From Actinomycetes bacterium (lineage in GTDB: Bacteria; Actinomycetota; Acidimicrobiia; Acidimicrobiales; Palsa-688): a stretch of DNA of 46,306 bases. Where the stretch lies: assembly GCA_021847945.1 (NCBI GenBank), contig JAJZNG010000099.1:1-46306 (forward strand), read 5' to 3'. Positions 12,193 to 32,858 of the stretch are shown here, in pieces; within the stretch, counting starts at the first letter, position 1; each line of letters starts with the position of its first letter. The translations under genes were made by a program, and so were the position numbers. The notes beneath the pieces are model-generated. The model was not told where the DNA came from. It saw only the letters and a program-made list of their open reading frames with translations, and made no database searches.

Positions 12193-12942
12193 GTGAACCT
12201 CGATAGCGTGTCTGACCCCGGGCACACAGGGATGTCCCTGTCGCAACTCGTCGCTCGGACCGGTGTTCCGGCTTCGACAATCCACCACTACCGGCGTTCT
12301 GGGTGGATACCCCAGCCTACCCGCCAGTCCAACAGACACTTCACCTACGACGAAGCTCACGTCGAGGCGATCCTCGAGTTGCGGTCGGGGTCGTCGGCGT
12401 TCAGCCACGACTGCCGTGCCCGCCTGATTGCAGCTGCCATCGAAGCCTTCCGAACCCGCAGTTTCGCCGAGGTGTCCGTAAGCGACATCACGTCGGCGGC
12501 CCAGATGGCCAAGGGAAACTTCTACAGGTACTTCCCGTCCAAGGAGGCGCTCATAAGCGCCTGCATTGAGACCCTCGTGGATGACACAGCTTCGCGCCTA
12601 GAGGTGGCTTTGGATTCGACAGGCGGCGTCGAGCCACTGCGCGGTGACGCCGGCAGGACGGCCTTGGTCCTCGGATATGTGCTCGCCGACGTGCTCCCGC
12701 TGTTGCTGGAGCTAGGAGCTCGAGCCGCCAAAGGCCACGAGCCCAGCGCCGAGTTGGCACGGCGATCCCTGCGGACACTGGCGTCGGTGGCGGGCCGTCC
12801 TTTTCTCGAGCCGGAGACCGACGACGACGCCAAGCTGATCGAAACCGGCCTGGCGGTCCTCCAGTCGGCTTTCGCCACGGTGATGTCATGGGCGGTCGGC
12901 CCCGACTGGCCACCTGACGAGGGCATCGCCTCACAAGCTTGA
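12193..12942 (+). CDS. Double-HTH regulator: MerR-like domain fused to TetR-type domain
   Basis: Residues 14-64 read MSLSQLVARTGVPASTIHHY...IPQP...NRHFTYDEAHVEAI, a MerR-type winged helix. Residues about 76-121 are a TetR/AcrR HTH (AAIEAFRTRSFAEVSVSDIT, then AKGNFYRYFPSKEALI), and the C-terminal half is the variable TetR ligand and dimer domain. The start is GTG 12193. It ends 27 bases before hpnC on the same strand, and the promoter found there overlaps its stop codon, so it is the best candidate regulator of the hopanoid operon. TetR proteins are usually repressors released by a small molecule. The ligand is not predictable here, but a lipid, solvent or isoprenoid-like compound would make sense. 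The MerR part may add a second DNA contact. Confidence 0.85.
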   Translation: MNLDSVSDPGHTGMSLSQLVARTGVPASTIHHYRRSGWIPQPTRQSNRHFTYDEAHVEAILELRSGSSAFSHDCRARLIAAAIEAFRTRSFAEVSVSDITSAAQMAKGNFYRYFPSKEALISACIETLVDDTASRLEVALDSTGGVEPLRGDAGRTALVLGYVLADVLPLLLELGARAAKGHEPSAELARRSLRTLASVAGRPFLEPETDDDAKLIETGLAVLQSAFATVMSWAVGPDWPPDEGIASQA

Positions 12943-12969: not shown

Positions 12970-12985
12970 GTGACCACGCGGTCAC
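12970..12985. promoter_or_regulatory. Palindromic operator candidate overlapping hpnC start
   Basis: GTGACC-ACGC-GGTCAC, a perfect 6+4+6 inverted repeat on top of the expected transcription start. It is a suitable repressor site for the TetR-type regulator encoded immediately upstream. Inferred from position and symmetry. Confidence 0.45.
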
Positions 12986-13875
12986 TTCAGTATTCCTACG
13001 ATCCTGTTCCCACCCCCCCCGGGCTTCCCAGCGTTCAAGACGTCATGGGCAGGGCCGCGCGCGAGAATTTCAGGGTCGTATCACGCCTGATATCCGCGGA
13101 CGCACGGCGCCACCTGAGGGCATTCTACGGCTACGCGCGACTCGTCGACGAGATAGGCGACGCCTACGCAGGGGACCGTGTCGCCGCCTTGGAGTGGGTC
13201 GCCGCTGAGACGGCCGGTGCTCTGGACGGCCTCCCCGGCACCCATCCGCTGGTCCACGCTGCAGTCGGCTCCGTTCGCGAGCTGGGTGTAGAAGCTCAAC
13301 CCCTGTTCGACCTGATCGAGGCGAACCAGATGGACCAGTCAGCCTCCCGCTACGAGACATTCGACGACCTGCTTGGCTACTGCGAGCTGTCTGCTAACCC
13401 GGTTGGCAGGTTGGTCCTGGCTGCTTTCGGTCACTCCAGCGCGGAGGCCCTTCGCCACTCCGACTCGATCTGTTCGGGCCTGCAGATAATCGAGCACTGC
13501 GCTGACATGGCCGAGGACTATCGCAACTCCAGGGTGTACATGCCCCTGGTGGACTGGGCTCGCTTCGGCGCTGACCCCGCCGAGCTAGGCAGCGGTCTGC
13601 CGGCGAGTTGCGCCCTGCGGGCGATGGTCGCCTTCGAGGTGTCGCGGGCTCGGCGGTTACTCGACGATGGACTTCCCCTTATAGAGATGCTGCCCGGTAC
13701 GCTCGCCTGGGCGCTAGCCGGCTTTTGGGCTGGTGGCCAGGCTGCGGCCGACCGTATCGCCGAGCGAGACTTCGACGTCTCCCAGCCCGCCACCCAGCCC
13801 TCCCCTGCCCGAGTTGCCATCCACCTTCTCCAAGCTGCTCCCCGAGCGATAAGACGCAAGGCTCAAGCCCTATGA
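12970..13875 (+). CDS. hpnC: Squalene synthase-like HpnC (hydroxysqualene synthase)
   Basis: In the three-step HpnCDE route HpnD makes presqualene diphosphate, HpnC converts it to hydroxysqualene, and HpnE reduces that to squalene. This protein has the trans-isoprenyl synthase fold with the two Asp-rich motifs: YGYARLVDEIGD (53-64, Asp60/Asp64) and LQIIEHCADMAEDY (171-184, Asp179/Asp183), then NSRVYMP. It resembles HpnC more than HpnD because it opens RENFRVVSRLI and precedes the HpnD-like gene. I use GTG 12970 (301 residues), but no ribosome site is visible. The ATG at 13045 (residue 26, just before GRAARENF) is a possible shorter start. Its stop overlaps the hpnD ATG by 4 bases. Confidence 0.88.
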   Translation: MTTRSLQYSYDPVPTPPGLPSVQDVMGRAARENFRVVSRLISADARRHLRAFYGYARLVDEIGDAYAGDRVAALEWVAAETAGALDGLPGTHPLVHAAVGSVRELGVEAQPLFDLIEANQMDQSASRYETFDDLLGYCELSANPVGRLVLAAFGHSSAEALRHSDSICSGLQIIEHCADMAEDYRNSRVYMPLVDWARFGADPAELGSGLPASCALRAMVAFEVSRARRLLDDGLPLIEMLPGTLAWALAGFWAGGQAAADRIAERDFDVSQPATQPSPARVAIHLLQAAPRAIRRKAQAL

Positions 13876-14732
13876 GGGTCGACGAGGCCTACAAAGCCTG
13901 CGAGAAGATCACGGCGTCACAGGCGAAGAACTTCTACTACGGCATCAAGCTCCTGCCGCCACCCAAGAGGCAGGCCATGTCGGCGCTGTACGCCCTCGCT
14001 AGGCGTATCGACGACGTCGGGGACGGACCACTCCCGCAAGCCGCCAAGTTCGAAGCCCTAGACGCTGTCCGCGGCGAGGTGACCGCCCTTCGCGCCGACC
14101 CTTCGAGCGCCCTCGCCTCCCAGGACCCTGTCCTCGTCGCCATGGCGGACGCTTCGAGAAGGTGGGGCATTCCCTTGGACGCAGTAGAGGATCTCGTCGA
14201 CGGATGCAAGATGGATGTCGCCGGCACCGCCTACGACAACATCGACGACCTCGTGGTCTACTGCAGGAAGGTGGCGGGCACGGTAGGCAGGTGCAGTCTC
14301 GCAATCTACGGCAACCGCCAACCCGGCCGCGCCGAGATCCTCGCCGACGACCTCGGGGTTGCGCTTCAACTCACCAACATCCTCCGCGACATCGTGGAGG
14401 ACTACCGGGACATGGGGCGCGTGTACCTGCCGAGGGAAGACCTCGCCCGCTTCAGCGTCGGCGAGGACCTTCAAGGCCAACAAGACGATCTGGCCGCTCT
14501 CATAAGCTTCGAGGCAGGACGCGCCTGCGAATGGTACGACAGAGGCCTGCCGCTGTTGGAACTGCTGGACCGCCGTTCGCGCGCTTGCACCGCGGCGATG
14601 GCCGGCATCTACCGTAAGCTTTTGGAGCGGATCCTCCGCGACCCGACATTGGTACTGCGCACAAGGGTTTCCCTCGGCACCGCCGACAAGTCGATCGTCG
14701 CAGCGCGCGCTGTACTAACTGGCAGCGTATGA
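13872..14732 (+). CDS. hpnD: Presqualene diphosphate synthase HpnD
   Basis: Condenses two farnesyl diphosphates head to head. 286 residues from the ATG at 13872, which overlaps the hpnC stop (ATGA), so translation is probably coupled. The first Asp-rich motif is RRIDDVGD (44-51) and the second is LTNILRDIVEDYRDMGRVYLP-like (Asp173, Asp177), close to the HpnD consensus. KNFYYGIKLLPPPKRQAM at the N-terminus is typical of HpnD. The frame is open further upstream, inside hpnC, but homology begins here. Phytoene synthase is the nearest alternative, and the operon context argues against it. Confidence 0.92.
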   Translation: MRVDEAYKACEKITASQAKNFYYGIKLLPPPKRQAMSALYALARRIDDVGDGPLPQAAKFEALDAVRGEVTALRADPSSALASQDPVLVAMADASRRWGIPLDAVEDLVDGCKMDVAGTAYDNIDDLVVYCRKVAGTVGRCSLAIYGNRQPGRAEILADDLGVALQLTNILRDIVEDYRDMGRVYLPREDLARFSVGEDLQGQQDDLAALISFEAGRACEWYDRGLPLLELLDRRSRACTAAMAGIYRKLLERILRDPTLVLRTRVSLGTADKSIVAARAVLTGSV

Positions 14733-16165
14733 GCGCACCACCCCTGCATCGTTCGACGGTGACGGTTATCGGCGGCGGCTTGGCCGGGATATCGGCCGCC
14801 TTGGAAGCCGCTGACATGGGAGCGTCGGTGACTCTCGTCGAGCGCAAAGCCCACCTCGGGGGGCTGACGTGGTCCTTCGAGCACAACGGCATTGAAATGG
14901 ACAACGGCCAGCACGTGTTCCTTGCCTGCTGCAGTGAGTACCGGCGGTTCTTGACACGTATCGGCTCCGAGCGTGACGTCGTCGGCCCTTTCCCTCTCGA
15001 CGTTCCGGTGCTCGCTGAGACCGCCGGCGGGGCTGTCATGGCGACCAGGTTGCGCCGCTCGAACCTTCCGGTGCCTTTTCACCTTGCCGGTTCGCTGCTC
15101 TCATACCCTCACATCTCCCCAGCGGAGAGAGTAGGCCTCGGTCGGGCGCTGGCCGGCTTGGCACGTCTGCGTCTCGGGGATCCCCACCTCGATCAGGTCA
15201 ACTTCTTCGAATGGCTCCGCCGACATGGTCAGTCGCCAAGAGCGATCGAGGCTGTGTGGGACCTGATTACTGTCCCGACTGTCAACCTCCCCGCGTCGCA
15301 GGCGTCCCTCGCCGTAGCGGCACAGGTCTTCAAAACGGGACTCCTGAGCGACCGCTCAGCCTGCGACATAGGGTGGAGCGCCATCCCACTCGGACGCCTC
15401 CACGGACAACGGGCGTTCGCTGCGCTGCGCCGGCAGGGTGTTGCACTCCGCACTTCCGCAAGGGTCCGCTCGATCGTTAAGCAGGGACCCACCTGGGAAG
15501 TCGTAACCGACTCGGAGACCCTCGAATCCGACGCCGTGATCGTCGCAGTCCCCCACGACGAGGCGGCTACCCTAGTCCCAGGCGATGTTGCGCCAGCCCG
15601 CGACAACTGGCGCCACCTCGGATCGTCGGCTGTGGTAGACGTGCATCTGATTTTCGACCGGACTGTAACCGTATGGCCACTTATGGCAGCCTTGCACTCC
15701 CCCGTCCAGTGGGTCTTCGACCGCTCGTCTGCGTCGGGGCTCACCGGGGCTGGCCGTCAGCCGCAACGCGGGGGCACCGGGCCCCAGTACCTGGCTGTTT
15801 CGATATCAGCCGCCGACGAACTGCTCGGCCAACGGCCCGCCGCGATCGTGAAAGAGGTGACGGGCGCGCTTCGCCGGCTGCTTCCGGCGAGCGCTGACGC
15901 CGCCTTAGTAGACTCGGTGGTGACCAAAGAGCGCCGTGCCACTTTCAGAGCGGTACCCGGATCAGCAGTCCTGCGAGCGCAGCCGGCCAAGGCCCAACAG
16001 CGTCTCGCCATAGCCGGAGCATGGACCGATACTGGGTGGCCTGCCACCATGGAAGGGGCGGTGCGAAGCGGCATCGCCGCCGCCCGGGCCATCGCAGGCT
16101 TAACGCCATCGCAGCTGCCAACTTATAAGTTTACCGAACTACAACCCACCCGGGAGGTGGCGTGA
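14729..16165 (+). CDS. hpnE: Hydroxysqualene dehydroxylase HpnE (FAD enzyme)
   Basis: Reduces hydroxysqualene to squalene. 478 residues; an N-terminal FAD Rossmann motif, VTVIGGGLAGISAALEA (11-27), is followed by LVERKAHLGGLTWSF with the conserved Glu contacting FAD, DNGQHVFL near 58, and a C-terminal LAIAGAWTDTGWPATMEGA (about 430-448), the standard second flavin-contact region of this amine-oxidase/phytoene-desaturase-like family. The ATG overlaps the hpnD stop (ATGA). Its own stop overlaps the next GTG. Carotenoid desaturases share the fold, but the HpnCD neighbours fix the assignment. Confidence 0.92.
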   Translation: MSAPPLHRSTVTVIGGGLAGISAALEAADMGASVTLVERKAHLGGLTWSFEHNGIEMDNGQHVFLACCSEYRRFLTRIGSERDVVGPFPLDVPVLAETAGGAVMATRLRRSNLPVPFHLAGSLLSYPHISPAERVGLGRALAGLARLRLGDPHLDQVNFFEWLRRHGQSPRAIEAVWDLITVPTVNLPASQASLAVAAQVFKTGLLSDRSACDIGWSAIPLGRLHGQRAFAALRRQGVALRTSARVRSIVKQGPTWEVVTDSETLESDAVIVAVPHDEAATLVPGDVAPARDNWRHLGSSAVVDVHLIFDRTVTVWPLMAALHSPVQWVFDRSSASGLTGAGRQPQRGGTGPQYLAVSISAADELLGQRPAAIVKEVTGALRRLLPASADAALVDSVVTKERRATFRAVPGSAVLRAQPAKAQQRLAIAGAWTDTGWPATMEGAVRSGIAAARAIAGLTPSQLPTYKFTELQPTREVA

Positions 16166-17199
16166 CCCCTACTTTCGCTGTCGCCGAGGCACTTGAGCGT
16201 TGCAGACAGGCCATTACCCCTGCGCTGAAGGACGCCGTGGACCGCCTGACGCCAGACCTGCGGCTCATAGCTAGCTACCACTTCGGATGGACTGATCCCG
16301 CCGGTGAACCGACCAAGGCCCCTGGAGGCAAGGGGATACGTTCCGCTCTGGCGATCCTGAGCGCCGAGGCATGCTGGGCGGACCCAGCCGTGGGCGTACC
16401 CGGCGGGGTGGCCGTAGAACTGGTCCATAACTTCTCACTGATACACGACGACATCATCGACACCGACTCGGAACGCCACCACCGACCGACGGTATGGTCA
16501 GAGTACGGTGTCGGCGCTGCGATAGTCGCCGGTGACGCTCTCGCCGTCTTGGCACACCAAGTCCTCCTCGAATGCTCCCCTGATCGCGGACCAGCCGCAT
16601 CGAGCGCTTTAGCCGAGGCTACAGCCAAGATGATAGCCGGCCAAGCCGACGACATCGCCTTCGAGAAACGCCGCGACGTCAGCGTAGAGCAGTGCACCGC
16701 CATGTCAGCCGCCAAGACCGGGGCACTCCTGGGGTGCGCGTCGTCGATCGGTGCGATTCTCTCCGGGGCACCCGATGCAGCGGTCATGGCCTTGAACGAC
16801 TTCGGGTTGCACCTAGGCTTGGCGTTCCAGGCGGTGGACGACCTACTGGGCATCTGGGGCGACCCGAGCACCACGGGCAAGCCCGCCGGTAATGACCTCC
16901 GCCAACGCAAAAAGTCCCTCCCTGTGGTGGCCGCCTTGGCAGCGGCGGGACCCGAAGCCGACGAGCTGCGAACCCTTCTTCTCGGCGAGCCAGGGACCGT
17001 CCTTGCGCCGCTTGACCCTTCCCAGGTCGAAAGGGCCCGCTTTTTGGTCGAAGCATGCGGCGGTAAGGAGTGGACGGCGGTGAGAGCCAAGGCGAACCTC
17101 GACGCAGCTCTTGGAGCGCTCGAAAGGGTTCGCCTCTCTCCAGTTCCTCACAGGGACCTCGCAGACATTGCCGTCTACATCGTGGAGAGGGAGTTTTGA
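16162..17199 (+). CDS. Polyprenyl diphosphate synthase (FPP/GGPP synthase)
   Basis: Builds the C15 (or C20) allylic diphosphate that feeds HpnCD. 345 residues from a GTG overlapping the hpnE stop (GTGA). The first Asp-rich motif is HDDIID (95-100) and the second is QAVDDLLGIWGD (223-234), with GGKGIRSAL (55-63) binding IPP. The first motif has no two-residue insertion, and Phe91 lies five residues before it, an arrangement known from archaeal-type GGPP synthases, whereas the operon needs FPP. Many actinobacterial synthases of this type do make FPP, so product length is uncertain. The Streptomyces hopanoid cluster has a gene of this kind at the same place. Confidence 0.88.
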   Translation: MTPTFAVAEALERCRQAITPALKDAVDRLTPDLRLIASYHFGWTDPAGEPTKAPGGKGIRSALAILSAEACWADPAVGVPGGVAVELVHNFSLIHDDIIDTDSERHHRPTVWSEYGVGAAIVAGDALAVLAHQVLLECSPDRGPAASSALAEATAKMIAGQADDIAFEKRRDVSVEQCTAMSAAKTGALLGCASSIGAILSGAPDAAVMALNDFGLHLGLAFQAVDDLLGIWGDPSTTGKPAGNDLRQRKKSLPVVAALAAAGPEADELRTLLLGEPGTVLAPLDPSQVERARFLVEACGGKEWTAVRAKANLDAALGALERVRLSPVPHRDLADIAVYIVEREF

Positions 17200-19154
17200 C
17201 GGACCTGCGGGAGGAGTCGGGCGAGCACACCGTCGGCTGGTCACGCCACGTGCTCGACGACCTCGACACGGCCATCAAGTCCGGACGCGAGAACCTTCTA
17301 GGCCTCCAGCACGCCGAGGGATGGTGGAAGGGCGAGTTGGAGACCAACGTCTCGATGGACGCCGAGGACGTGATGTTGCGCCACTTCCTAGGTATTCTCG
17401 AACCGCAGCGCACCGCCAGGACCGCAGCATGGATCCGGTCACAGCAGCTTTCAAGTGGCGGTTGGGCGACCTTCTACGGCGGCCCCGACGACATTTCGGT
17501 CACGGTCGAGGCGTATGTGGCGTTGAGGCTCGCTGGGGATCCCCCTGATGCGTCCCACATGCTGCTTGCGTCGCAATGGGTCAGTTCCCAGGGCGGAATA
17601 GCCGCCACAAGAGTGTTCACTCGCATCTGGATGGCGGTAGTCGGGGCATGGTCGTGGGAGGATCTGCCTCTCGTCCCACCGGAAATAATGCTCCTGCCAA
17701 GTGGCATACCACTTAACATCTACGACTTCGCATGCTGGGCCCGCCAGACGATCGTAGCGATGAGCGTAGTTATGGCGTTCAAACCTGCGGTGCCGCTGCC
17801 TTTCACCCTGGGAGAGCTCGACTCCAAGACCGGGCCTTCTTCAGGGCCTTCTTCAGGCACCACGCCCAGGAAGACCCGGCCAGATTCAGTCCTCTACAAG
17901 CTTTTGGACCGTGCGATCCACGCGTACGACAAGGCGCCGGGTTGGTTGCTACCCGCGCGTCTTATCCGAAACTCCTCCCTAGCCAAGGCCGAGCGTTGGA
18001 TCCTGGCTCGCCAAGAGGCCGACGGCCTATGGGGTGGCATCCAACCACCCGTCGTGTACTCGATCATCGCTTTACGGCTTCTCGGCTACCCGCTCGACCA
18101 CCCGGTCCTAGCCGCAGCGCTGCGAGGCCTCGACTCGTTCACCGTCGACGACGAGCGCGGCCTTCGCCTGGAAGCCTGCCAATCCCCGGTGTGGGACACT
18201 GCGCTGGCTATCGTCGCCCTAAGCGACGTCGGCGTAGCTGGCGACGACCCGGCGATGCGTAGAGCAGCGCAGTGGCTGCTAGAAGAAGAGATACGAGTCA
18301 AGGGCGACTGGTCCGTACGCCGCCCCGACGTTCCGGCAGGTGGTTGGGCCTTCGAGTTCCACAACGACAACTATCCCGACGTCGACGACACCGCAGAGGT
18401 GATCCTTGCGCTACGCAGGGTACTGCCAGACTCCAAGATCGAAGAAGCCTGTCGACGCGGGGTGGAATGGTCGGTAGGCATGCAGAGCCGTTCGGGAGGA
18501 TGGGGAGCGTTCGACGCGGACAACGACAGCGCGACGGTCGCAAAGCTGCCTTTTTGCGACTTCGGGGAAGTGACCGACCCCCCCTCCGCCGACGTCACAG
18601 CCCACATGGTCGAGATGCTCGCCGAGGAGAAAGACGTCGACCGCTCAGTGCTCCAACGAGGTATCGACTGGCTTTGGGGAGCCCAGGAGCCTGACGGTTC
18701 CTGGTTCGGCCGGTGGGGTGTCAACTACGTCTATGGGACGGGAGCCGTCGTCCCAGCCCTCGTAGCAGCCGGAGTACCCAACAGCGACCCAAGAATCCGA
18801 GCCGCGCTGCAATGGCTAGCCGGCCACCAAAACGCCGACGGCGGCTGGGGTGAGGATCTGAGGTCCTACGTCCACGACGAGTGGCGCGGGAGGGGAACTT
18901 CGACACCATCGCAGACCGCCTGGGCGCTACTCGCTCTTCTCGCCGGGGGCGAGCCCTCAAGCGAAGCGGCACGGCGCGGTGTCAGCTGGTTGATAGAGAA
19001 CCAAACTGCTGACGGAGGCTGGGACGAGCCATGGTTCACAGGAACCGGGTTTCCGTGGGACTTCAGCATCAACTACCACCTCTACAGGATCGTCTGGCCG
19101 CTAATGGCTCTCGGCAGGTATGCGGCGGCGGTCTCAAAGTCGGAGACAGTGTGA
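17196..19154 (+). CDS. shc: Squalene-hopene cyclase
   Basis: Cyclises squalene to hopene/hopanol at the cytoplasmic membrane. I start at TTG 17196, which overlaps the previous stop (TTGA) and follows GGAGAGGGAG. This gives 652 residues, normal for the family. The catalytic DVDD motif is at 395-398 (YPDVDDTAEV), and repeated QW-type motifs are visible (QEADGLWGG near 273, SGGWGAF near 430, EPDGSWFGRWG near 493, NADGGWGE near 550, TADGGWDEPW near 610). FNINYHLYR appears as FSINYHLYRIVWPLMALG at the C-terminus. A Ser/Gly/Pro/Thr insertion (residues 211-229) contains a 12-base tandem duplication. The next gene overlaps by 4 bases. Confidence 0.96.
   Translation: MTDLREESGEHTVGWSRHVLDDLDTAIKSGRENLLGLQHAEGWWKGELETNVSMDAEDVMLRHFLGILEPQRTARTAAWIRSQQLSSGGWATFYGGPDDISVTVEAYVALRLAGDPPDASHMLLASQWVSSQGGIAATRVFTRIWMAVVGAWSWEDLPLVPPEIMLLPSGIPLNIYDFACWARQTIVAMSVVMAFKPAVPLPFTLGELDSKTGPSSGPSSGTTPRKTRPDSVLYKLLDRAIHAYDKAPGWLLPARLIRNSSLAKAERWILARQEADGLWGGIQPPVVYSIIALRLLGYPLDHPVLAAALRGLDSFTVDDERGLRLEACQSPVWDTALAIVALSDVGVAGDDPAMRRAAQWLLEEEIRVKGDWSVRRPDVPAGGWAFEFHNDNYPDVDDTAEVILALRRVLPDSKIEEACRRGVEWSVGMQSRSGGWGAFDADNDSATVAKLPFCDFGEVTDPPSADVTAHMVEMLAEEKDVDRSVLQRGIDWLWGAQEPDGSWFGRWGVNYVYGTGAVVPALVAAGVPNSDPRIRAALQWLAGHQNADGGWGEDLRSYVHDEWRGRGTSTPSQTAWALLALLAGGEPSSEAARRGVSWLIENQTADGGWDEPWFTGTGFPWDFSINYHLYRIVWPLMALGRYAAAVSKSETV
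17832..17855 (+). repeat. 12-bp tandem duplication inside shc
   Basis: GGGCCTTCTTCA occurs twice in a row and encodes GPSSGPSS in a loop between the first and second halves of the cyclase. It keeps the frame. Confidence 0.8.
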
Positions 19155-20737
19155 CAGGCGGCGGGCTGCTTTTACTGGCCCCTCTACGACTTGAGGCCAG
19201 GGCTTTAGCCCAGGGCGCCCCTGACGCGCGTGTCGTGAGGACCGGAGCCGGACCTCTGCGCTCTTGCCGCAGCGTTGCAGAGCTCACAGCCGGGGTGCTC
19301 CATCCCGGGGGCCAGCGCGTCCCTAACCCGCTCCAGGACGCTGACCCGCCTACGAGGCCTGGGGCATCCCAGTCCCCCGTCCGTGCGGTGGCCGTCGCTG
19401 GCCTCGCAGGCGGCCTGCGCGACGACCTCGAGCCGGGAACCGTAGTCGTAGCGAACCGGGTCATAGACGAAGCGGGCAACGTCGCCGCACAGCTGACCTC
19501 GGCGCCACTCTTGGCAGCCGAGCTGACCGCACGCGGTCACAAGACCGTCGTCGGCACCGTCATAAGCGCCAGGAATGTCGTGCAGGGTTCCCAGCGCCGT
19601 GCAGTGCTTGCGTCACTTGGGGCGGTAGCTGTCGACACCGAGACAGCCTGGCTGCTGGCCAACGGGTGGGAGCTTCCGTCGGTCGCGGTAAGGGTGATAG
19701 TGGACACTCCCGGAAGGGAACTGCGCTCCCTCGCCACTGTCACAGGCGGGATTAAGGCGCTCGGCGTGCTAAGCCGCGCAGCGCGGGTAATCGCCGAGTG
19801 GTCCGACTCGCTCGACGAGCGTGAGATCGTCCTGGCCAGCCCCCGGTCCTTCTGCGCCGGCGTCGACCGGGCGATCCAAACTGTGGAGAGGGCGATCGAC
19901 AAGTTCGGCGCTCCTGTCTATGTCAGGCGTCACATCGTCCACAATCGCCACGTGGTAGCCGACCTGGAGGCCCGCGGGGCGGTGTTCGTACGTGACCTCG
20001 AAGAGGTTCCCGACGGCGCCACCGTCATCTTCTCTGCTCACGGCGTCGCCCCTTCCGTGCGCCGCGTAGCCGCAGATCGCGGTTTGAGCGTGGTGGATGC
20101 CACCTGTCCGCTGGTCTCCAAAGTCCATCACGAGGTCCGCCGTTTCGCCGCTCGGTCGATGCAGGTTGTGCTTATAGGCCACGCCGGGCACGACGAGACC
20201 GAGGGAACCCTCGGGGAAGCTCCGAACATCTCGCTCGTCGAGAACCCCGCTGACGTCGCCCGCCTAGAGGTCAGCGACCCCGAACGGTTGGCCTATGTCA
20301 CCCAGACCACCCTGTCGCCTGACGACGTGGCTTCGGTCGTGGGAGAACTGACGCGCCGCTACCCGGGTGTGGTAGGCCCCGGATCTGCCGACGTCTGCTA
20401 CGCGACACAAAACCGCCAAGATGCTGTACGTATGATCGCGCCTAAATGCTCCATGGTGATCGTCGTCGGCTCGCCTAGCTCCTCGAACGCCAACAGGCTG
20501 GTGGAGGTGGCTCGACGGCACGGGTCCAAGGCTGTCCTGGTCGAAGACGAACGAGACCTTCGCTTCGAGCACGTTCGAGGGGCCTCGGTGCTAGGAGTGA
20601 CCGCAGCGGCCTCTACACCGCCGCACGTCGTCGACGCTGTAGTCGACGCCCTTCGTTCCTTCGGTCCGACGCATATCACCGAGGTATCTACAGTCGCCGA
20701 GAATGCTTCGTTCTCTCTCCCAATGGAGGTCAGATAA
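19151..20737 (+). CDS. Fusion protein: HpnG-like adenosylhopane nucleosidase + IspH
   Basis: 528 residues from GTG 19151, overlapping the shc stop (GTGA). Residues about 5-210 match the phosphorylase/nucleosidase superfamily used by HpnG to release adenine from adenosylhopane (VAVAGLAGGLRDDLEPGTVVVA-like core near 80-100, SLGAVAVDTETAWL near 155-168). Residues about 225-528 are a complete IspH (HMBPP reductase), the last MEP-pathway enzyme: 4Fe-4S ligands Cys235 (SFCAG), Cys319 (DATCPLV) and Cys416 (VCYATQNRQ), His264 (IVHNRHVV), His297 (SAHGV) and catalytic Glu328 (KVHHEV). No stop or shift separates the halves. One chain would thus serve both ends of the pathway, making IPP/DMAPP and trimming adenosylhopane. 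Confidence 0.88.
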   Translation: MTGGGLLLLAPLRLEARALAQGAPDARVVRTGAGPLRSCRSVAELTAGVLHPGGQRVPNPLQDADPPTRPGASQSPVRAVAVAGLAGGLRDDLEPGTVVVANRVIDEAGNVAAQLTSAPLLAAELTARGHKTVVGTVISARNVVQGSQRRAVLASLGAVAVDTETAWLLANGWELPSVAVRVIVDTPGRELRSLATVTGGIKALGVLSRAARVIAEWSDSLDEREIVLASPRSFCAGVDRAIQTVERAIDKFGAPVYVRRHIVHNRHVVADLEARGAVFVRDLEEVPDGATVIFSAHGVAPSVRRVAADRGLSVVDATCPLVSKVHHEVRRFAARSMQVVLIGHAGHDETEGTLGEAPNISLVENPADVARLEVSDPERLAYVTQTTLSPDDVASVVGELTRRYPGVVGPGSADVCYATQNRQDAVRMIAPKCSMVIVVGSPSSSNANRLVEVARRHGSKAVLVEDERDLRFEHVRGASVLGVTAAASTPPHVVDAVVDALRSFGPTHITEVSTVAENASFSLPMEVR

Positions 20738-21742
20738 GTGGGAGTACCCCTACGCCAGAGCCTGAAGATAGGCGCCTACCTTGCCCGCCAGAAGCTCGCT
20801 GGAAGGGAGAAGTTCCCTTTGATAGTCGAGCTCGAACCCCTCTTCGCGTGCAACTTGTCCTGCAACGGTTGCGGCAAGATCCAGTACCCGACGGAGATCC
20901 TCCGCAAACGCCTGTCGGTCGAAGCAGCAGTCGCCGCTATCGAAGAGTGCGGCGCGCCTATGGTCTCGATAGCCGGCGGTGAACCGCTGTTGCACCCCGA
21001 GATCGACAAGATGACGCAAGCTCTGCTCGACCGGGGCCGTTACGTGTACCTGTGCACGAACGCTCTGCTGCTGGAACGCAAACTCGACCGTTTCAGCCCG
21101 CACCACCGTTTCAGCTGGGTCGTGCATATCGACGGTCTAAAAGAGCGTCACGACGAGTCGGTGAGTAGGGAAGGAACCTTCGACAAGGCGGTGGCTGCCA
21201 TAGCTTTGGCTAAGCAGCGCGGGTTCAAGGTGACGACCAACACTACTTTCTTCTCGACCGACTCCCCCAAGACCATCCGGGAAGTCCTCGACTTTTTGAA
21301 CGACGACCTCGGCGTGGACCAGATGATGATCTCGCCTGGATACGCCTACGAGAAGGCTCCGGATCAGGTCCACTTCTTGAGCACCCGGACCTCCCAGGAG
21401 ATCTTCGCCGAGGCGTTCGGCGACGGCCGGCGAAAAAAGTGGCGCCTGAATCACAGCCCGCTCTTCTTGGACTTCTTGGAGGGCAAGGCCGACTTCCAGT
21501 GCACGCCGTGGGGAATACCGAGCTACTCGGTTTTCGGTTGGCAGCGTCCCTGCTACTTGATGGCCGACGGTTACACCGACACCTACAAGGAGCTCGTCGA
21601 CACCACCGACTGGGACCGCTACGGCAGGGGACGCGACCCGCGATGCGCCAACTGCATGGCTCACTGCGGCTACGAACCGAGCGCCGTTCTCGCTACGACC
21701 AAGTCGCTTCGCCAGTCGATCCGCGCCGCGGTGGGCTCCTGA
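20738..21742 (+). CDS. hpnH: Adenosylhopane synthase HpnH (radical SAM)
   Basis: Adds the 5'-deoxyadenosyl group of SAM to hopene, the first step of hopanoid side-chain growth. 334 residues from GTG 20738, which directly follows the preceding TAA; GGAGG lies 10 bases upstream. The radical SAM cluster motif is CNLSCNGC (Cys38, Cys42, Cys45), with SIAGGEPLLHPEI (77-89) as the SAM-binding GGE motif. A C-terminal Cys group (CANCMAHCGY, about 307-316) and PSYSVFGWQRPCYLM near 263 are typical of HpnH. It overlaps the aminotransferase start by one base. Confidence 0.95.
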   Translation: MGVPLRQSLKIGAYLARQKLAGREKFPLIVELEPLFACNLSCNGCGKIQYPTEILRKRLSVEAAVAAIEECGAPMVSIAGGEPLLHPEIDKMTQALLDRGRYVYLCTNALLLERKLDRFSPHHRFSWVVHIDGLKERHDESVSREGTFDKAVAAIALAKQRGFKVTTNTTFFSTDSPKTIREVLDFLNDDLGVDQMMISPGYAYEKAPDQVHFLSTRTSQEIFAEAFGDGRRKKWRLNHSPLFLDFLEGKADFQCTPWGIPSYSVFGWQRPCYLMADGYTDTYKELVDTTDWDRYGRGRDPRCANCMAHCGYEPSAVLATTKSLRQSIRAAVGS

Positions 21743-23127
21743 TGGGATTCGACCTGGCGGACCTAGTCAAGTCTCGGGCGGGCGAAGGCTCCCAGCTGTG
21801 GTCGCGCTACTTGAACCCGCAGACGTCGAAAGTTCTTCACTCTGTCGGACTCGACCGTCAGTGGGTCCGCGCGCAAGGCCCCTACCTTTGGGACGACCAA
21901 GGAGACCGCTACCTCGACTGGCTGGCCGGGTTCGGCGTGTTCGGACTGGGACGTAACCATCCCGTGGTCGCCCGGGCGTTGCATCAGGTTCTCGACGCGG
22001 AGCTCGCCGACATGGTCAAGATGGACACGCCGCTGCTGGCGGGACTCCTGGGCGAGGCGTTGGTAGCACGGGTCCCTCACCTTGACAGGGTTTACCTGTG
22101 CAACAGCGGGACTGAAGCGGTGGAGGCAGCCCTCAAGTTCGCAAGGTACTACACCGGCCGGCCTCGTGTCCTCTACTGCGGCCACGCCTACCACGGTTTG
22201 ACCGCCGGCGCCTTATCGGTGAACGGCGGGAAGGCCTTCAAAGCCGGTTTCGGCCCGCTCCTGCCGGCCAGCGAGATCCCCTTCGGGGATATCGCTGCCC
22301 TGGAGAAGGCCGCCGCGAAGGGCGACGTCGCTGCGCTTATCGTGGAACCCGTCCAGGGCAAGGGGGTTCAGGTGGCGCCGCCCGGATATCTTGCCGCCGC
22401 CGCCGGGGTACTTCACGCTAACAAGGCGCTGCTAATATGCGACGAGGTACAGGCGGGAATGGGACGGACCGGGCGGATGTTCAGTTTTGAACACGACGCT
22501 GTCGAGCCCGACATAATTACGGTGGCCAAGACGCTGTCTGGGGGTTACGTTCCAGTCGCGGCGACCATGACCCGAGAGGATATCTTCGGATCCGTGTACT
22601 CGTCCATGACAAGGGTGCTGGTGCACGACACCACCTACAGCCACAACAACATGGCGGCGGCGGCCGGTCTCGCTGCTCTAAGCGTGATCGACGACGAAGG
22701 GCTGTTAGCCAACGCCGCTGCACGCGGGGACGAGCTCCGCCGTTCGCTGGAACGCAGCGCTGCACGTTTCGACTTCATCAAAGACGTGAGAGGACGCGGC
22801 CTCATGGTCGGCATCGAGTTCGGGGCTCCTGGGTCGCTGCGACTCAAAGGCCGTTACAGTCCTCTCAGCGCGCTCCGAAAGGGACTGTTCACCCAGATGG
22901 TCGTCTGCAGACTTTTCAGCGAGCACCGGGTGCTCACCCAGACCGCCGCAGACCACATGGACGTCCTCAAGCTCCTCCCACCGTTGGCTACGACCTCAGA
23001 GGACATCGGATGGTTCATGTCCGGCTTCGAAGCTGTGATGGGCGAGATACAAGCCAGCAGCCGTCCCGTCTGGCAGTTCGCCAAGGGCCTTGCCTCGAGG
23101 TCCCTGGCGAGAAGCTCACATGCCTAG
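21742..23127 (+). CDS. Class III aminotransferase, HpnO-like
   Basis: A PLP enzyme of the acetylornithine/GABA aminotransferase class, 461 residues from ATG 21742 (TGATG overlap with hpnH). NSGTEAVEAALKFAR (121-135) binds the cofactor phosphate, DEVQAGMGRTG (234-244) holds the PLP Asp, and Lys263 in VAKTLSGGY forms the Schiff base. As the last gene of the operon it most likely makes aminobacteriohopanetriol from ribosylhopane, as HpnO does. The Streptomyces hopanoid cluster also ends with an aminotransferase gene. The extra N-terminal segment (about 1-40) and C-terminal amphipathic tail (QFAKGLASRSLARSS) may associate with the membrane; this is inference. Confidence 0.85.
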   Translation: MGFDLADLVKSRAGEGSQLWSRYLNPQTSKVLHSVGLDRQWVRAQGPYLWDDQGDRYLDWLAGFGVFGLGRNHPVVARALHQVLDAELADMVKMDTPLLAGLLGEALVARVPHLDRVYLCNSGTEAVEAALKFARYYTGRPRVLYCGHAYHGLTAGALSVNGGKAFKAGFGPLLPASEIPFGDIAALEKAAAKGDVAALIVEPVQGKGVQVAPPGYLAAAAGVLHANKALLICDEVQAGMGRTGRMFSFEHDAVEPDIITVAKTLSGGYVPVAATMTREDIFGSVYSSMTRVLVHDTTYSHNNMAAAAGLAALSVIDDEGLLANAAARGDELRRSLERSAARFDFIKDVRGRGLMVGIEFGAPGSLRLKGRYSPLSALRKGLFTQMVVCRLFSEHRVLTQTAADHMDVLKLLPPLATTSEDIGWFMSGFEAVMGEIQASSRPVWQFAKGLASRSLARSSHA

Positions 23128-28882: not shown

Positions 28883-29652
28883 GCTTCGTCGCGTCGAGAG
28901 GCGACCTCACCTCGCAGCAGGCCGAGCAAGAGAGCGGCCTGCTCGGCACGACAAATCAGCAGGTCATCCACATAGGGCGTAGCCCGGTTATAGACAAGCG
29001 TTGAGCCGTCCACGCGCGAAGCGTGTAGACCGGCGCTCATCGCCACACCGACCGGCGCGGCCGAGTCCCACTCCCACTGCCCGCCGGTGTGCACGTAGGC
29101 GTCGACGGTTCCCTCCACTACGGCCATCGCCTTGGCCCCGGCGGATCCCATGCGCACCACGTCGAAGCCGGCGGCGGCCGCCACCGCTGAGGCGACCGGT
29201 TGGGGTCGGCTGTCGCTCACGGCGAGCCTTCTGGGGCCGTCATGGGCGCTCCGAGCGTCTGGAACCCGGTCGCTTGCGAACACCTTGCCCTGCGCGGGAA
29301 GGCTGACCGCCGCAACCGCGATACCCACGTCTCGCTCCCAAAGCGCTATGTGCACAGCCCAGTCCTGCCTACCGGGTGTGCGGTACTCGCGGGTCCCGTC
29401 GAGGGGGTCTACGATCCACACTCTGTCTGCTTCGAGGCGACGAAGGTCGTCAGGGGATTCCTCGGAGAGGATCATGTCGTCCGGGCGGCATTCGCCTAGG
29501 CGATCTTGTATCAACCTGTTCGACTCGAAGTCTCCCGCATCGCCGAGTCTCTGACCGACCAGCCCTCCTGCGCGTACGGCGAGCAGAAGGCGGCCGGCCT
29601 CCTCGGCCACCTGCGCGGCGAGGCGGGCGTCGTCGAGGGAGTGTGAGCTCAC
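28858..29652 (-). CDS. CysQ-type 3'(2'),5'-bisphosphate nucleotidase / inositol monophosphatase family
   Basis: A Mg-dependent phosphatase of 264 residues. The metal site is complete: SEES (63-66, Glu64/Glu65), WIVDPLDGTREY (79-90, Asp82, Asp85) and QWEWDSAAPVGVA (about 192-204) with the third Asp. The TREY ending fits CysQ/PAP phosphatases better than inositol monophosphatases (usually T-x-N-F), so the likely role is recycling PAP to AMP in sulfur metabolism. The GTG overlaps the stop of the fused mutase gene (GTGA), so the two are co-translated, an odd pairing with no obvious metabolic link. A 14-bp perfect palindrome (29641-29654) spans this junction. Confidence 0.88.
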   Translation of the reverse strand: MSSHSLDDARLAAQVAEEAGRLLLAVRAGGLVGQRLGDAGDFESNRLIQDRLGECRPDDMILSEESPDDLRRLEADRVWIVDPLDGTREYRTPGRQDWAVHIALWERDVGIAVAAVSLPAQGKVFASDRVPDARSAHDGPRRLAVSDSRPQPVASAVAAAAGFDVVRMGSAGAKAMAVVEGTVDAYVHTGGQWEWDSAAPVGVAMSAGLHASRVDGSTLVYNRATPYVDDLLICRAEQAALLLGLLRGEVASRRDEAHRLGSSE

Positions 29653-32600
29653 ACGTTGCGTCGGTACTTGCCGCCGACCTCGAAGAGCGTCTGCGTTATC
29701 TGACCCAGACTTGCGTATCGCACAGCGTCCATCAGCACGCCGAACACGTTACCCCCAGACAGTGCAGTGTCGGCGAGGCGTGCGAGGACCCCAGGGCGCT
29801 CGTCGGCGTGACGGGCGTGGAAGGACGCTAGCCGCTCCAGCTGGCTGCGCTTTTCGTCTTCGGTAGAGCGGGCCAGTTCGAGATGGGAAGGCACGGCGTC
29901 TCCTTCGGGGTTTCGGAAGGTGTTGACACCGACGATGGGGAGAGTCCCGTCGTGCTTGCGGCTCTCGTAGAGCATCGACTCGTCCTGGATGCGGCCGCGC
30001 TGGTAGCCGGTCTCCATCGCTCCAAGCACGCCACCCCGCTCCGAGAGGCGGTCAAGCTCGGCCAGGACTGCCTCTTCGACAAGGTCCGTGAGCTCCTCCA
30101 CGATGAAGCTGCCCTGCAAGGGGTTCTCGTTCGCTGCGAGGCCCCACTCCCGGCTGATTATCAGCTGGATCGCAAGAGCCCGTCTGACCGACTCGGCCGT
30201 TGGGGTCGTCACTGCCTCGTCGTAGGCGTTGGTGTGCAAGCTGTTGGCGTTGTCGTATATCGCGCACAGCGCCTGGAGGGTGGTGCGGATGTCGTTGAAA
30301 GCCATCTCTTGGGCGTGGAGGGAGCGCCCCGAGGTCTGGATGTGGTACTTCAGCTTCTGAGCACGTTCGGAGGCACCGTAGCGGTCGCGCATCGCAATCG
30401 CCCAGATCCGCCTTGCTACGCGGCCTATGACCGTGTACTCGGGGTCCATGCCGTTGGAGAAGAAGAAGGAGAAGTTCGGGGCGAAGTCGTCAACGTGCAT
30501 TCCTCGCGCCAGGTAAGCCTCGACGTAGGTGAAACCGTTCGCGAGGGTAAAAGCCAGCTGGCTGATCGGGTTAGCCCCCGCCTCGGCAATGTGATATCCC
30601 GAGATCGACACGGAGTAGAAATTCTTGACGGCGTTGTCGATGAACCACTCCTGGATGTCGCCCATGACCCGCAGCGAGAACTCCGTCGAGAATATGCACG
30701 TGTTCTGACCCTGGTCCTCCTTGAGGATGTCGGCCTGCACCGTACCCCTGATACGGCGCAGGGTCGAAGAGCGGATCTCCTCCGCCTCCTGTGAGGTTGG
30801 CGGCCGAGAGTTCGCAGCGGTAAACCGTTCGGTCTGGTCGTCTATAGCGGCGTTGAAGAACATCGCCAGTATCGTCGGAGCCGGACCGTTGATCGTCATG
30901 GAAACAGATGTGGCCGGGTCGCACAGGTCGAACCCCCTGTAAAGGTCCCGCATGTCGTCGAGTGTTGCTATGGACACGCCCGAGTTGCCAACCTTCCCGT
31001 ATATGTCAGGCCGGACGTCAGGATCGAAACCGTAGAGGGTGACCGAGTCGAAAGCCGTCGACAAACGCGTGGCGGGCTGGCCGGCTGACAGCATGTGGAA
31101 TCGCGTGTTGGTCCGGGCAGCGTCGCCCTCGCCGGCGAACATCCGCGCTGGGTCTTCACCTTGCCTTTTGAGTGGGAAGACTCCGGCGGTGAAGGGGAAT
31201 GCTCCGGGAAGGTTCTCCGAGCGTAACCATGCGAGCAGATCCCCGTCGGACTCGAAGCGCGGCAGGGCTACCCTCGCCACGGGAGTACCCGAAAGGGACA
31301 CTTTGTGAAGTTCCGCGTCCGACAGGGCCGCTGCTCTAGCCGGCCATTCTTCGAGCAGCCGTCTGGACTCGGCGTCGAAGCTCTCCTCGGTCGTCGACGC
31401 GAGACGCCTCACGTCGGAGTCTTCCAGTCCTTGCTCGTCGAGGATGCCGAGCACTTCGCGCAGGGCCTGGCGGCGTCGCGCTTGCAGCACGACTTGCCGT
31501 GTGCGGCGGTGGTAGTTGCGGACAGCTTCGGAAATCTCCGAGAGATACCGCGACCGGGCGGTCGGGACGATCGCATCTCGTCGCGTCGATATACGCCCAG
31601 CCTGCGGGGGAAGGACCCCCGTGGTCGCGTGGAGCCCGAGCGCCCGCAACTGCGTTAGAAGGTAGTGGTAGAGGGCGTTCACGCCGTCGTCGGCGAAACG
31701 GGAAGCGACAGTGGCGAAGACCGGGAGCTCCTCCAAGGCAACGCCACGATGGTCGCCGCTTCTCGCCAGGTGACGGCGTACGTCACGGAGCGCGTCCGCA
31801 CCACCGGTACGTTCGAACTTGTTGACCACCACTGCCTTGGCGAAGTCGAGCATGTCGATCTTCTCCAGCTGCGAAGGTGAGCCGAACTCGGGTGTCATCA
31901 CGTACACGGGCAGGTCCACGTGGGAGATGACCTCGGCGTCGCCTTGTCCGATGCCGGGTGTCTCTACGATCACCAGGTTGAAGCCCCCGGCACGGCATAT
32001 GGAGATTGCGTCGTCCAGGCAGCCTGGCAGCTCCGAAGTGGAACCCCTGGTGGCAAGGGAGCGAAAGAAAATTGTCCGGTGACCGTGGTTGGACACGTCG
32101 AGCGAGTTCATTCGAATTCGGTCACCGAGCAGTGCTCCTCCCCCCTTGCGCCGGGTCGGGTCCACTGCGAGGACCGCCACGGAGAGCTTGTCCTGCTGGT
32201 CGAGGCGGAAGCGGCCCACGAGCTCGTCGGTCAGGGAAGACTTGCCGGAACCCCCCGTGCCTGTGATACCCAACACAGGCGCCGGGTTGGTAGCGGCCGC
32301 TTCGGAGATGCGCCTGCGGGTTTCCACGTCCAAGCCGCCGTTCTCGGACACCGAGATCAGCCTGGCTATAGCCCGCTGGTCGCCTTCGGTCGCCGCTTGG
32401 ACGTCTCGGGGGTCGAGGGGGAGCGGAGGCGTATCGCATTGTCTGATCAAAAGGTTGATCATGGATTCAAGGCCTAGCGACTGGCCGTCTTGGGGCGAGA
32501 AGATACGCGAGATCCCGTAAGCGTGGAGCTCGTCGATCTCCGAGGCGACGATCGTTCCTCCCCCACCGCCGTACACGCGTATGTCGGGACGGCCCTCGGA

Positions 32601-32858
32601 GCGGAGCCTGTCGAGGAGGTAGCGGAAGTACTCGACATGGCCCCCCTGATAGGAACTGATGGCGACGCCTTGAACGTCCTCTTGGATCGCGGCCGTGACG
32701 ACTTCGTCGACTGAGCGGTTGTGGCCGAGGTGGATAACCTCGGCCCCTTGGGCGACTAGGAGCCGTCTCATGATGTTGATAGCCGCGTCGTGACCGTCGA
32801 AGAGGCTAGCGGCGGTGACGAAACGCACCGGATTGACCGGTCGCTGCACAGAGTTCAC
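29649..32858 (-). CDS. icmF: Fused isobutyryl-CoA mutase IcmF (B12-dependent, with G-protein chaperone)
   Basis: Interconverts isobutyryl-CoA and butyryl-CoA. 1069 residues in the normal IcmF order: cobalamin-binding domain (about 10-140, SLFDGHDAAIN with Asp21/His23), MeaI-type GTPase (about 190-400, Walker A GITGTGGSGKSS at 197-208, and VDPTRRKGGGALLGDRIRM), a linker, then the catalytic TIM barrel (about 500-1069; TLYGFDPDVRPDIYGKVGNS, SISGYHIAEAGANP). Related fusions act on pivalyl- or isovaleryl-CoA, and I cannot separate these from sequence alone. The start is GTG 32858, apparently leaderless. The E1 dehydrogenase upstream could supply isobutyryl-CoA from valine. The phosphatase gene follows with a 4-base overlap. 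Confidence 0.94.
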   Translation of the reverse strand: MNSVQRPVNPVRFVTAASLFDGHDAAINIMRRLLVAQGAEVIHLGHNRSVDEVVTAAIQEDVQGVAISSYQGGHVEYFRYLLDRLRSEGRPDIRVYGGGGGTIVASEIDELHAYGISRIFSPQDGQSLGLESMINLLIRQCDTPPLPLDPRDVQAATEGDQRAIARLISVSENGGLDVETRRRISEAAATNPAPVLGITGTGGSGKSSLTDELVGRFRLDQQDKLSVAVLAVDPTRRKGGGALLGDRIRMNSLDVSNHGHRTIFFRSLATRGSTSELPGCLDDAISICRAGGFNLVIVETPGIGQGDAEVISHVDLPVYVMTPEFGSPSQLEKIDMLDFAKAVVVNKFERTGGADALRDVRRHLARSGDHRGVALEELPVFATVASRFADDGVNALYHYLLTQLRALGLHATTGVLPPQAGRISTRRDAIVPTARSRYLSEISEAVRNYHRRTRQVVLQARRRQALREVLGILDEQGLEDSDVRRLASTTEESFDAESRRLLEEWPARAAALSDAELHKVSLSGTPVARVALPRFESDGDLLAWLRSENLPGAFPFTAGVFPLKRQGEDPARMFAGEGDAARTNTRFHMLSAGQPATRLSTAFDSVTLYGFDPDVRPDIYGKVGNSGVSIATLDDMRDLYRGFDLCDPATSVSMTINGPAPTILAMFFNAAIDDQTERFTAANSRPPTSQEAEEIRSSTLRRIRGTVQADILKEDQGQNTCIFSTEFSLRVMGDIQEWFIDNAVKNFYSVSISGYHIAEAGANPISQLAFTLANGFTYVEAYLARGMHVDDFAPNFSFFFSNGMDPEYTVIGRVARRIWAIAMRDRYGASERAQKLKYHIQTSGRSLHAQEMAFNDIRTTLQALCAIYDNANSLHTNAYDEAVTTPTAESVRRALAIQLIISREWGLAANENPLQGSFIVEELTDLVEEAVLAELDRLSERGGVLGAMETGYQRGRIQDESMLYESRKHDGTLPIVGVNTFRNPEGDAVPSHLELARSTEDEKRSQLERLASFHARHADERPGVLARLADTALSGGNVFGVLMDAVRYASLGQITQTLFEVGGKYRRNV

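Follow-up and report, generated by a model that had tools for sequence, protein, structure and literature searches.

A fused hpnG::ispH gene in the hopanoid operons of actinobacteria

We analysed a 46,306-nucleotide contig (JAJZNG010000099.1, referred to at its full length as the window) from a genome of the order Acidimicrobiales, in which the genes for hopanoid synthesis form a tightly packed operon. One gene of this operon, hpnG::ispH, encodes an HpnG-type nucleosidase continued in the same frame by a complete IspH, the reductase for 4-hydroxy-3-methylbut-2-enyl diphosphate (HMBPP) in the methylerythritol phosphate (MEP) pathway. The fusion is not confined to the window organism but is widespread in actinobacteria. 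It probably gives a protein with two activities, those of a classical HpnG and of a second IspH dedicated to hopanoids, fused so that both are produced together.

One reading frame with two conserved domains

The gene starts with GTG, has no internal stop and ends directly before hpnH. An earlier reading of the window made without database searches (the sequence-only reading) had proposed that one frame joins an HpnG-like domain to a complete IspH with three Fe-S cysteines and a catalytic glutamate, and both points were upheld by the Pfam and NCBIfam matches and by residues C235, C319, C416 and E349. The HpnG domain itself also stands, with its end, placed at about residue 210 in that reading, moved to about residue 219.

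For the HpnG half, Pfam PNP_UDP_1 matched residues 77-189 (39.5 bits, cut-off 25.1) and was found in 42/42 fused proteins. The residues E15, E164 and D185 are kept in 39, 42 and 41 of these 42 proteins, respectively; their positions correspond to E12, E174 and D197 of the E. coli methylthioadenosine/S-adenosylhomocysteine (MTA/SAH) nucleosidase. Foldseek placed this half with MTA/SAH nucleosidases and purine nucleoside phosphorylases (TMt about 0.6). The fused domain was the sole match to the HpnG model TIGR03468 in the window genome (E <= 0.001) and the best match in Frankia alni, with 87.9 bits compared with 40.2 for the next. Judged by fold and catalytic residues, the HpnG half looks functional, with release of adenine from adenosylhopane as its predicted reaction.

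The IspH half matched Pfam LYTB at residues 226-501 (293.9 bits, cut-off 24.5) and NCBIfam TIGR00216 ispH_lytB with 307.4 bits, which passes the cut-off of 187.85. When positions were mapped onto E. coli IspH structures, all 12 cluster and HMBPP-site residues (the three cysteines, the catalytic E349 and eight others) were unchanged in 56/56 distinct fused IspH domains, the window protein included. Foldseek alignment to the E. coli IspH:HMBPP structure 3ke8_A gave a TMt of 0.95, a root-mean-square deviation of 1.4 Å and 51% identity. This half thus looks like a working HMBPP reductase, the activity being predicted.

The two halves meet with little between them. In the AlphaFold2 model of the whole chain (mean pLDDT 92.9, pTM 0.89), the C-terminal helix of the HpnG domain spans residues 195-219 and is followed by four residues leading to the first IspH strand. 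The distance from W217 to the first Fe-S cysteine, C235, is 19 residues in 41/42 fused proteins and 21 in the remaining one. Stand-alone HpnG proteins of Streptomyces-like genomes end about eight residues past the matching Trp, so the fusion joins a natural HpnG end to a natural IspH start. The window protein and that of the sister genome G406 share an extra stretch of roughly 26 residues (about 49-76), absent from G407, which is predicted with low confidence and without secondary structure.

The joint lies in a genuine reading frame and is not an assembly error. It recurs with near-constant length in many independent genomes, and across 41 codons at the joint the window and G406 differ by no indel and by 23 nucleotides, 17 of them at third positions. 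These observations contradict a missed stop or frameshift at the junction, which the sequence-only reading had named as a possible objection. The window's assembly is a draft in 243 contigs, a point in favor of an assembly or sequencing artefact; dozens of independent assemblies share the architecture, however, including the single contig of Frankia alni ACN14a. Together with the codon-position pattern over the joint, this rules out an artefact, the probability of which is practically nil.

Distribution, ancestry and expression

In an even sample of the phylum, the fusion was found in 5/397 genomes, four of them besides the window genome. Within the window's family, 20/32 genomes carry it and three others have matches that contig ends divide or cut short; among Frankiaceae, it was present in 31/35 genomes. 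With the HpnG domain as query for 84,980 species genomes, 39 of 64 named loci proved to have the fusion, and carriers also include Nocardia, Amycolatopsis, Prauserella, Pseudonocardia and Solirubrobacterales. All four scans rule out a fusion unique to the window organism. At the loci examined, the fusion always lies in a hopanoid cluster with hpnH, usually directly behind shc. Within these loci, the question of whether it occurs only with hpnH is answered: hpnH is in the same cluster wherever the contig continues and is the immediate next gene in all but one of them.

Two loci have unusual arrangements. In a Thermoleophilaceae locus (L074:1-4566), an hpnG::ispH gene cut by the contig end is followed by shc, a second, stand-alone hpnG and hpnH, so that this cluster encodes two HpnG. 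In one Frankiaceae genome (G486:C33:131470-132823, L199), the fusion gene matched in two separate pieces, possibly reflecting a pseudogene or a sequencing error.

The fused gene generally accompanies another ispH. As the sequence-only reading had suggested looking for, the window genome has a stand-alone copy (G000:C45:7196-8017), about 41% identical to the fused IspH; it holds a single ispG compared with two ispH. At least one further ispH was present in 28/29 fused genomes tested, all but one small draft genome, and all 31 Frankiaceae with the fusion have a stand-alone ispH too. Genomes with a non-fused hpnG in the hopanoid cluster had a single ispH in 6/7 cases. For the window genome and nearly all relatives, these counts rule out the fused IspH as the only one.

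The fused IspH domains are one lineage apart from the stand-alone ones. In an unrooted tree of 113 IspH domains, which leaves out the very divergent stand-alone copy of the window genome and in which most fused rows were found via the HpnG half, 56 fused and four unfused domains separated from 53 stand-alone domains with branch support of 100/96. A clade made up of the fused domains alone was rejected (approximately unbiased test, p 8.6e-56) because the four unfused copies fall inside the group. Two of these copies (L008 and L142) lie within the operon, and the other two, L030:1513-2421 in the Streptomyces-like genome G247 and L017:1513-2409 in G237, have no hopanoid genes in the examined flanks. 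It is possible that the L030 and L017 copies are relics of a broken fusion. On a quickly built HpnH tree, the fused label takes about nine changes, at least two of them forced by strong branches, and a single gain with losses is therefore something we infer rather than read from the tree. Most likely, the fusion arose when an ispH became attached behind hpnG at an early stage of the hopanoid clusters of actinobacteria, and it disappeared again on several later occasions.

The two halves have also come apart in nature. Kutzneria viridogrisea (L107:8001-9056) has an intact HpnG half, but what is left of its IspH half is an eroded remnant, still in frame, that has none of the three Fe-S cysteines; two further full ispH genes are present in this genome. 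In G426 and G383, the operons read shc-ispH-hpnH without the HpnG half, and each genome has an HpnG-model match elsewhere (99 and 94 bits, respectively). As the halves have been lost separately, these cases speak against obligatory channelling.

We then located the protein in published Frankia data. The genome G465 is Frankia alni ACN14a, with a single contig of 7,497,934 bases on which open frames begin or end exactly at the positions given for FRAAL1194 (1269992), FRAAL6813 (7420646) and FRAAL6814 (7421686) (PMC10252897). Its fusion, at 1539459-1540817, lies behind shc and ahead of hpnH and must therefore be FRAAL1433, a gene annotated as IspH (HMBPP reductase) only and the neighbour of FRAAL1432 (squalene-hopene cyclase, SHC). 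In propionate-fed, N2-fixing cells, proteomics detected FRAAL1433 at 5.12-fold and FRAAL1432 at 4.23-fold increased levels (PMC10252897). The protein is therefore made, and its level co-varies with SHC. Frankia vesicle envelopes contain mainly bacteriohopanetetrol and its derivatives (PMC4058466), a product requiring HpnG, and HpnG activity is thus needed there. Although the Frankia protein has long been public in databases, its HpnG half appears to be unremarked in the literature searched, and a search with most subscription papers and all preprints outside its reach found no description of an HpnG-IspH fusion.

The operon around the fusion

The genes run in the order hpnC-hpnD-hpnE-prenyl synthase-shc-[hpnG::ispH]-hpnH-hpnO (Table 1). 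The genes hpnD, hpnE, that of the prenyl synthase, shc, the fusion and hpnO all have a start that overlaps the stop of the gene before; hpnH begins at the next base. This context bears out the proposal that the fusion ties the MEP pathway to the hopanoid operon. Co-regulation, likewise proposed from the sequence, is supported by the 4-bp overlap of the fusion with shc, by its constant operon position and by the co-varying levels of FRAAL1432 and FRAAL1433 (PMC10252897). A promoter scan gave nothing beyond chance.

Table 1. Features of the hopanoid operon in the window
Feature	Coordinates	Strand	Basis and remarks
MerR-helix-turn-helix (HTH) + TetR-HTH double regulator	12193..12942	+	Pfam MerR_1 and TetR_N in one open reading frame (ORF), directly upstream of hpnC
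hpnC, hydroxysqualene synthase	12970..13875	+	TIGR03464 238.1 bits, cut-off 250.45
hpnD, presqualene diphosphate synthase	13872..14732	+	TIGR03465 264.5 bits, cut-off 278.6; ATG start inferred (ATGA overlap with hpnC stop)
hpnE, hydroxysqualene dehydroxylase	14729..16165	+	TIGR03467 389.8 bits, over cut-off
polyprenyl (farnesyl-type) diphosphate synthase	16162..17199	+	PF00348 182.5 bits; NF041169 392.6 bits, cut-off 450
shc, squalene-hopene cyclase	17196..19154	+	TIGR01507 733.9 bits, over cut-off; TTG start inferred
hpnG::ispH fusion gene	19151..20737	+	528 aa; GTGA overlap with shc stop; Pfam/NCBIfam and relatives
HpnG-type nucleosidase domain, residues 1-219	19151..19807	+	PNP_UDP_1 match, conservation, MTAN/PNP fold matches
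HpnG domain key residues			E15, D162-E164, R181, D185, W217
IspH domain, residues 224-528	19820..20734	+	TIGR00216 over cut-off, residues, E. coli IspH:HMBPP structure match
IspH domain key residues			C235, C319, C416; E349; H264, H297, H347; T387; S444, S445, N446; S488
hpnH, radical SAM (S-adenosylmethionine) adenosylhopane synthase	20738..21742	+	TIGR03470 518.6 bits, over cut-off
hpnO-like class III aminotransferase	21742..23127	+	PF00202 277.3 bits, position after hpnH; ATG start inferred; HpnO name by context

The MerR/TetR protein is a candidate regulator of hopanoid synthesis. A gene of this type also lies upstream of hpnC in Acidimicrobiia- and Thermoleophilia-type clusters, both fused and unfused (L083, L112, L101, L108, L061, L062, L036, L099 and L037), and is absent from the Nocardia and Amycolatopsis loci examined. 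For the polyprenyl synthase, the best model, below its cut-off, was that of a family 2 encapsulin cargo polyprenyl transferase. Elsewhere in the window, one ORF (29649-32858) combines a B12-binding domain, a MeaB-type GTPase and a methylmalonyl-CoA-mutase-type domain, matching the known IcmF architecture.

Function and significance of the fusion

HpnH adds a 5´-deoxyadenosyl group to diploptene, HpnG strips the adenine to give ribosylhopane, and HpnO leads on to aminobacteriohopanetriol (PMC12583986). In the explanation we favor, the N-terminal domain would be the operon's HpnG, removing adenine from the HpnH product adenosylhopane and leaving ribosylhopane to be aminated by HpnO. The C-terminal domain would be a second, hopanoid-dedicated IspH converting HMBPP to isopentenyl diphosphate and dimethylallyl diphosphate. 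IspH has been described as a bottleneck owing to its redox-sensitive cluster (PMC13001223), and the extra copy could add capacity at this oxygen-sensitive last step of the MEP pathway while the operon is on. Both activities would act separately, with the fusion coupling their synthesis. Several points weigh against this explanation. The HpnG half scores only 52.7 bits with TIGR03468 (cut-off 187.1), leaving substrate specificity unproven by sequence, and both half-activities are predictions. The separate HpnG-model gene of G383 is surrounded by unrelated genes, and its role is uncertain. Finally, the constant junction length and the confident whole-chain model could also reflect a functional interface.

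A rival reading is a structural coupling, in which an HpnG oligomer brings IspH together with HpnH, SHC and the prenyl synthase in a complex close to the membrane, and C5 units or reducing power are channelled. The junction length, invariant in 41/42 proteins with an invariant Trp, the pTM of the whole chain and the constant place beside hpnH are all consistent with this arrangement. HpnH and IspH are, moreover, both Fe-S enzymes that depend on low-potential electrons. However, many steps separate HpnG and IspH in the pathway, the fused frame persists in Kutzneria though its IspH half has lost the three cysteines, and G426 and G383 retain an operon ispH without the HpnG half. The short joint may also be inherited, given that stand-alone Streptomyces-like HpnG ends near the same Trp. 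We therefore regard structural coupling as unlikely, and the channelling suggested by the sequence-only reading is disfavored by the distance between the steps and by this uncoupling in both directions. A shared complex with HpnH is no more than a possibility. A physical node, in which a hopanoid-specific IspH is held near the membrane by the HpnG half, complexed with HpnH and drawing on the same supply of low-potential electrons, is distinctly unlikely; if true, it would couple C5 supply to side-chain finishing in oxygen-exposed actinobacteria such as nitrogen-fixing Frankia.

The weak HpnG-model match and the structural likeness to MTA/SAH nucleosidases could also point to an N-terminal domain that acts as a general scavenger of 5´-deoxyadenosine or methylthioadenosine from HpnH or other radical SAM enzymes. 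This non-classical role, likewise raised from the sequence, is decidedly improbable, as the domain takes the place of hpnG ahead of hpnH in the clusters examined, keeps the catalytic residues, and is the sole or best HpnG-model match of the window genome and Frankia alni, respectively; Frankia bacteriohopanetetrol production, in addition, requires HpnG activity. HpnH consumes the 5´-deoxyadenosyl radical by addition to diploptene (PMC12583986), and free 5´-deoxyadenosine would be unexpected in normal turnover. A new side-chain role for the IspH half, for instance by serving HpnH as a reductant or by acting where ribosylhopane is reduced to bacteriohopanetetrol, would suit the separate lineage of the fused domains and the fact that the enzyme for the latter step is not established (PMC12583986). 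Yet the 12 HMBPP-site residues are unchanged throughout, as in a working HMBPP reductase, many bacteriohopanepolyol producers have no fusion, and Kutzneria retains the cluster despite a dead IspH half, making such a role very improbable.

The two-activity protein resembles known systems in part. It shares with HpnG (TIGR03468) the operon slot beside shc and hpnH, the nucleosidase fold, the catalytic Glu/Glu/Asp and the C-terminal helix, which in many ends in Trp. Streptomyces-like genomes, Actinopolyspora and further hopanoid producers encode HpnG as a stand-alone protein, whereas the window protein runs on into IspH; it scores below the cut-off of the curated model, which was reached by 0/397 genomes of the phylum sample. 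Like IspH/LytB (TIGR00216), it has a complete domain with cluster and substrate residues and the E. coli IspH:HMBPP fold, but it lies behind a nucleosidase, belongs to a lineage distinct from the stand-alone IspH that these genomes also carry and is an extra copy in a hopanoid operon. The PRK00087-type fusion of IspH with ribosomal protein S1 likewise places IspH in a longer two-part protein; there, IspH is N-terminal and its partner unrelated, whereas here IspH is C-terminal and its partner serves the same end product. Gene fusion inside hopanoid or isoprenoid synthesis is known from hpnCD, in hopanoid clusters (PMC5462960), and from IspDF (PMC13001223), which also joins non-consecutive steps. 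Unlike either, the fusion described here joins a C5-supply step to a step after completion of the C30 skeleton.

Hopanoids rank among the major membrane lipids and serve as geological biomarkers, and the hopanoid envelope of Frankia is thought to protect nitrogenase from oxygen. A large share of the actinobacteria, Frankia among them, encode the hpnG step within a gene that can be labeled as HMBPP reductase alone, and surveys aimed at stand-alone hpnG may overlook it. In addition, the fusion points to a second IspH dedicated, as we propose, to hopanoids, and so offers a handle on whether oxygen-sensitive C5 supply limits hopanoid synthesis.

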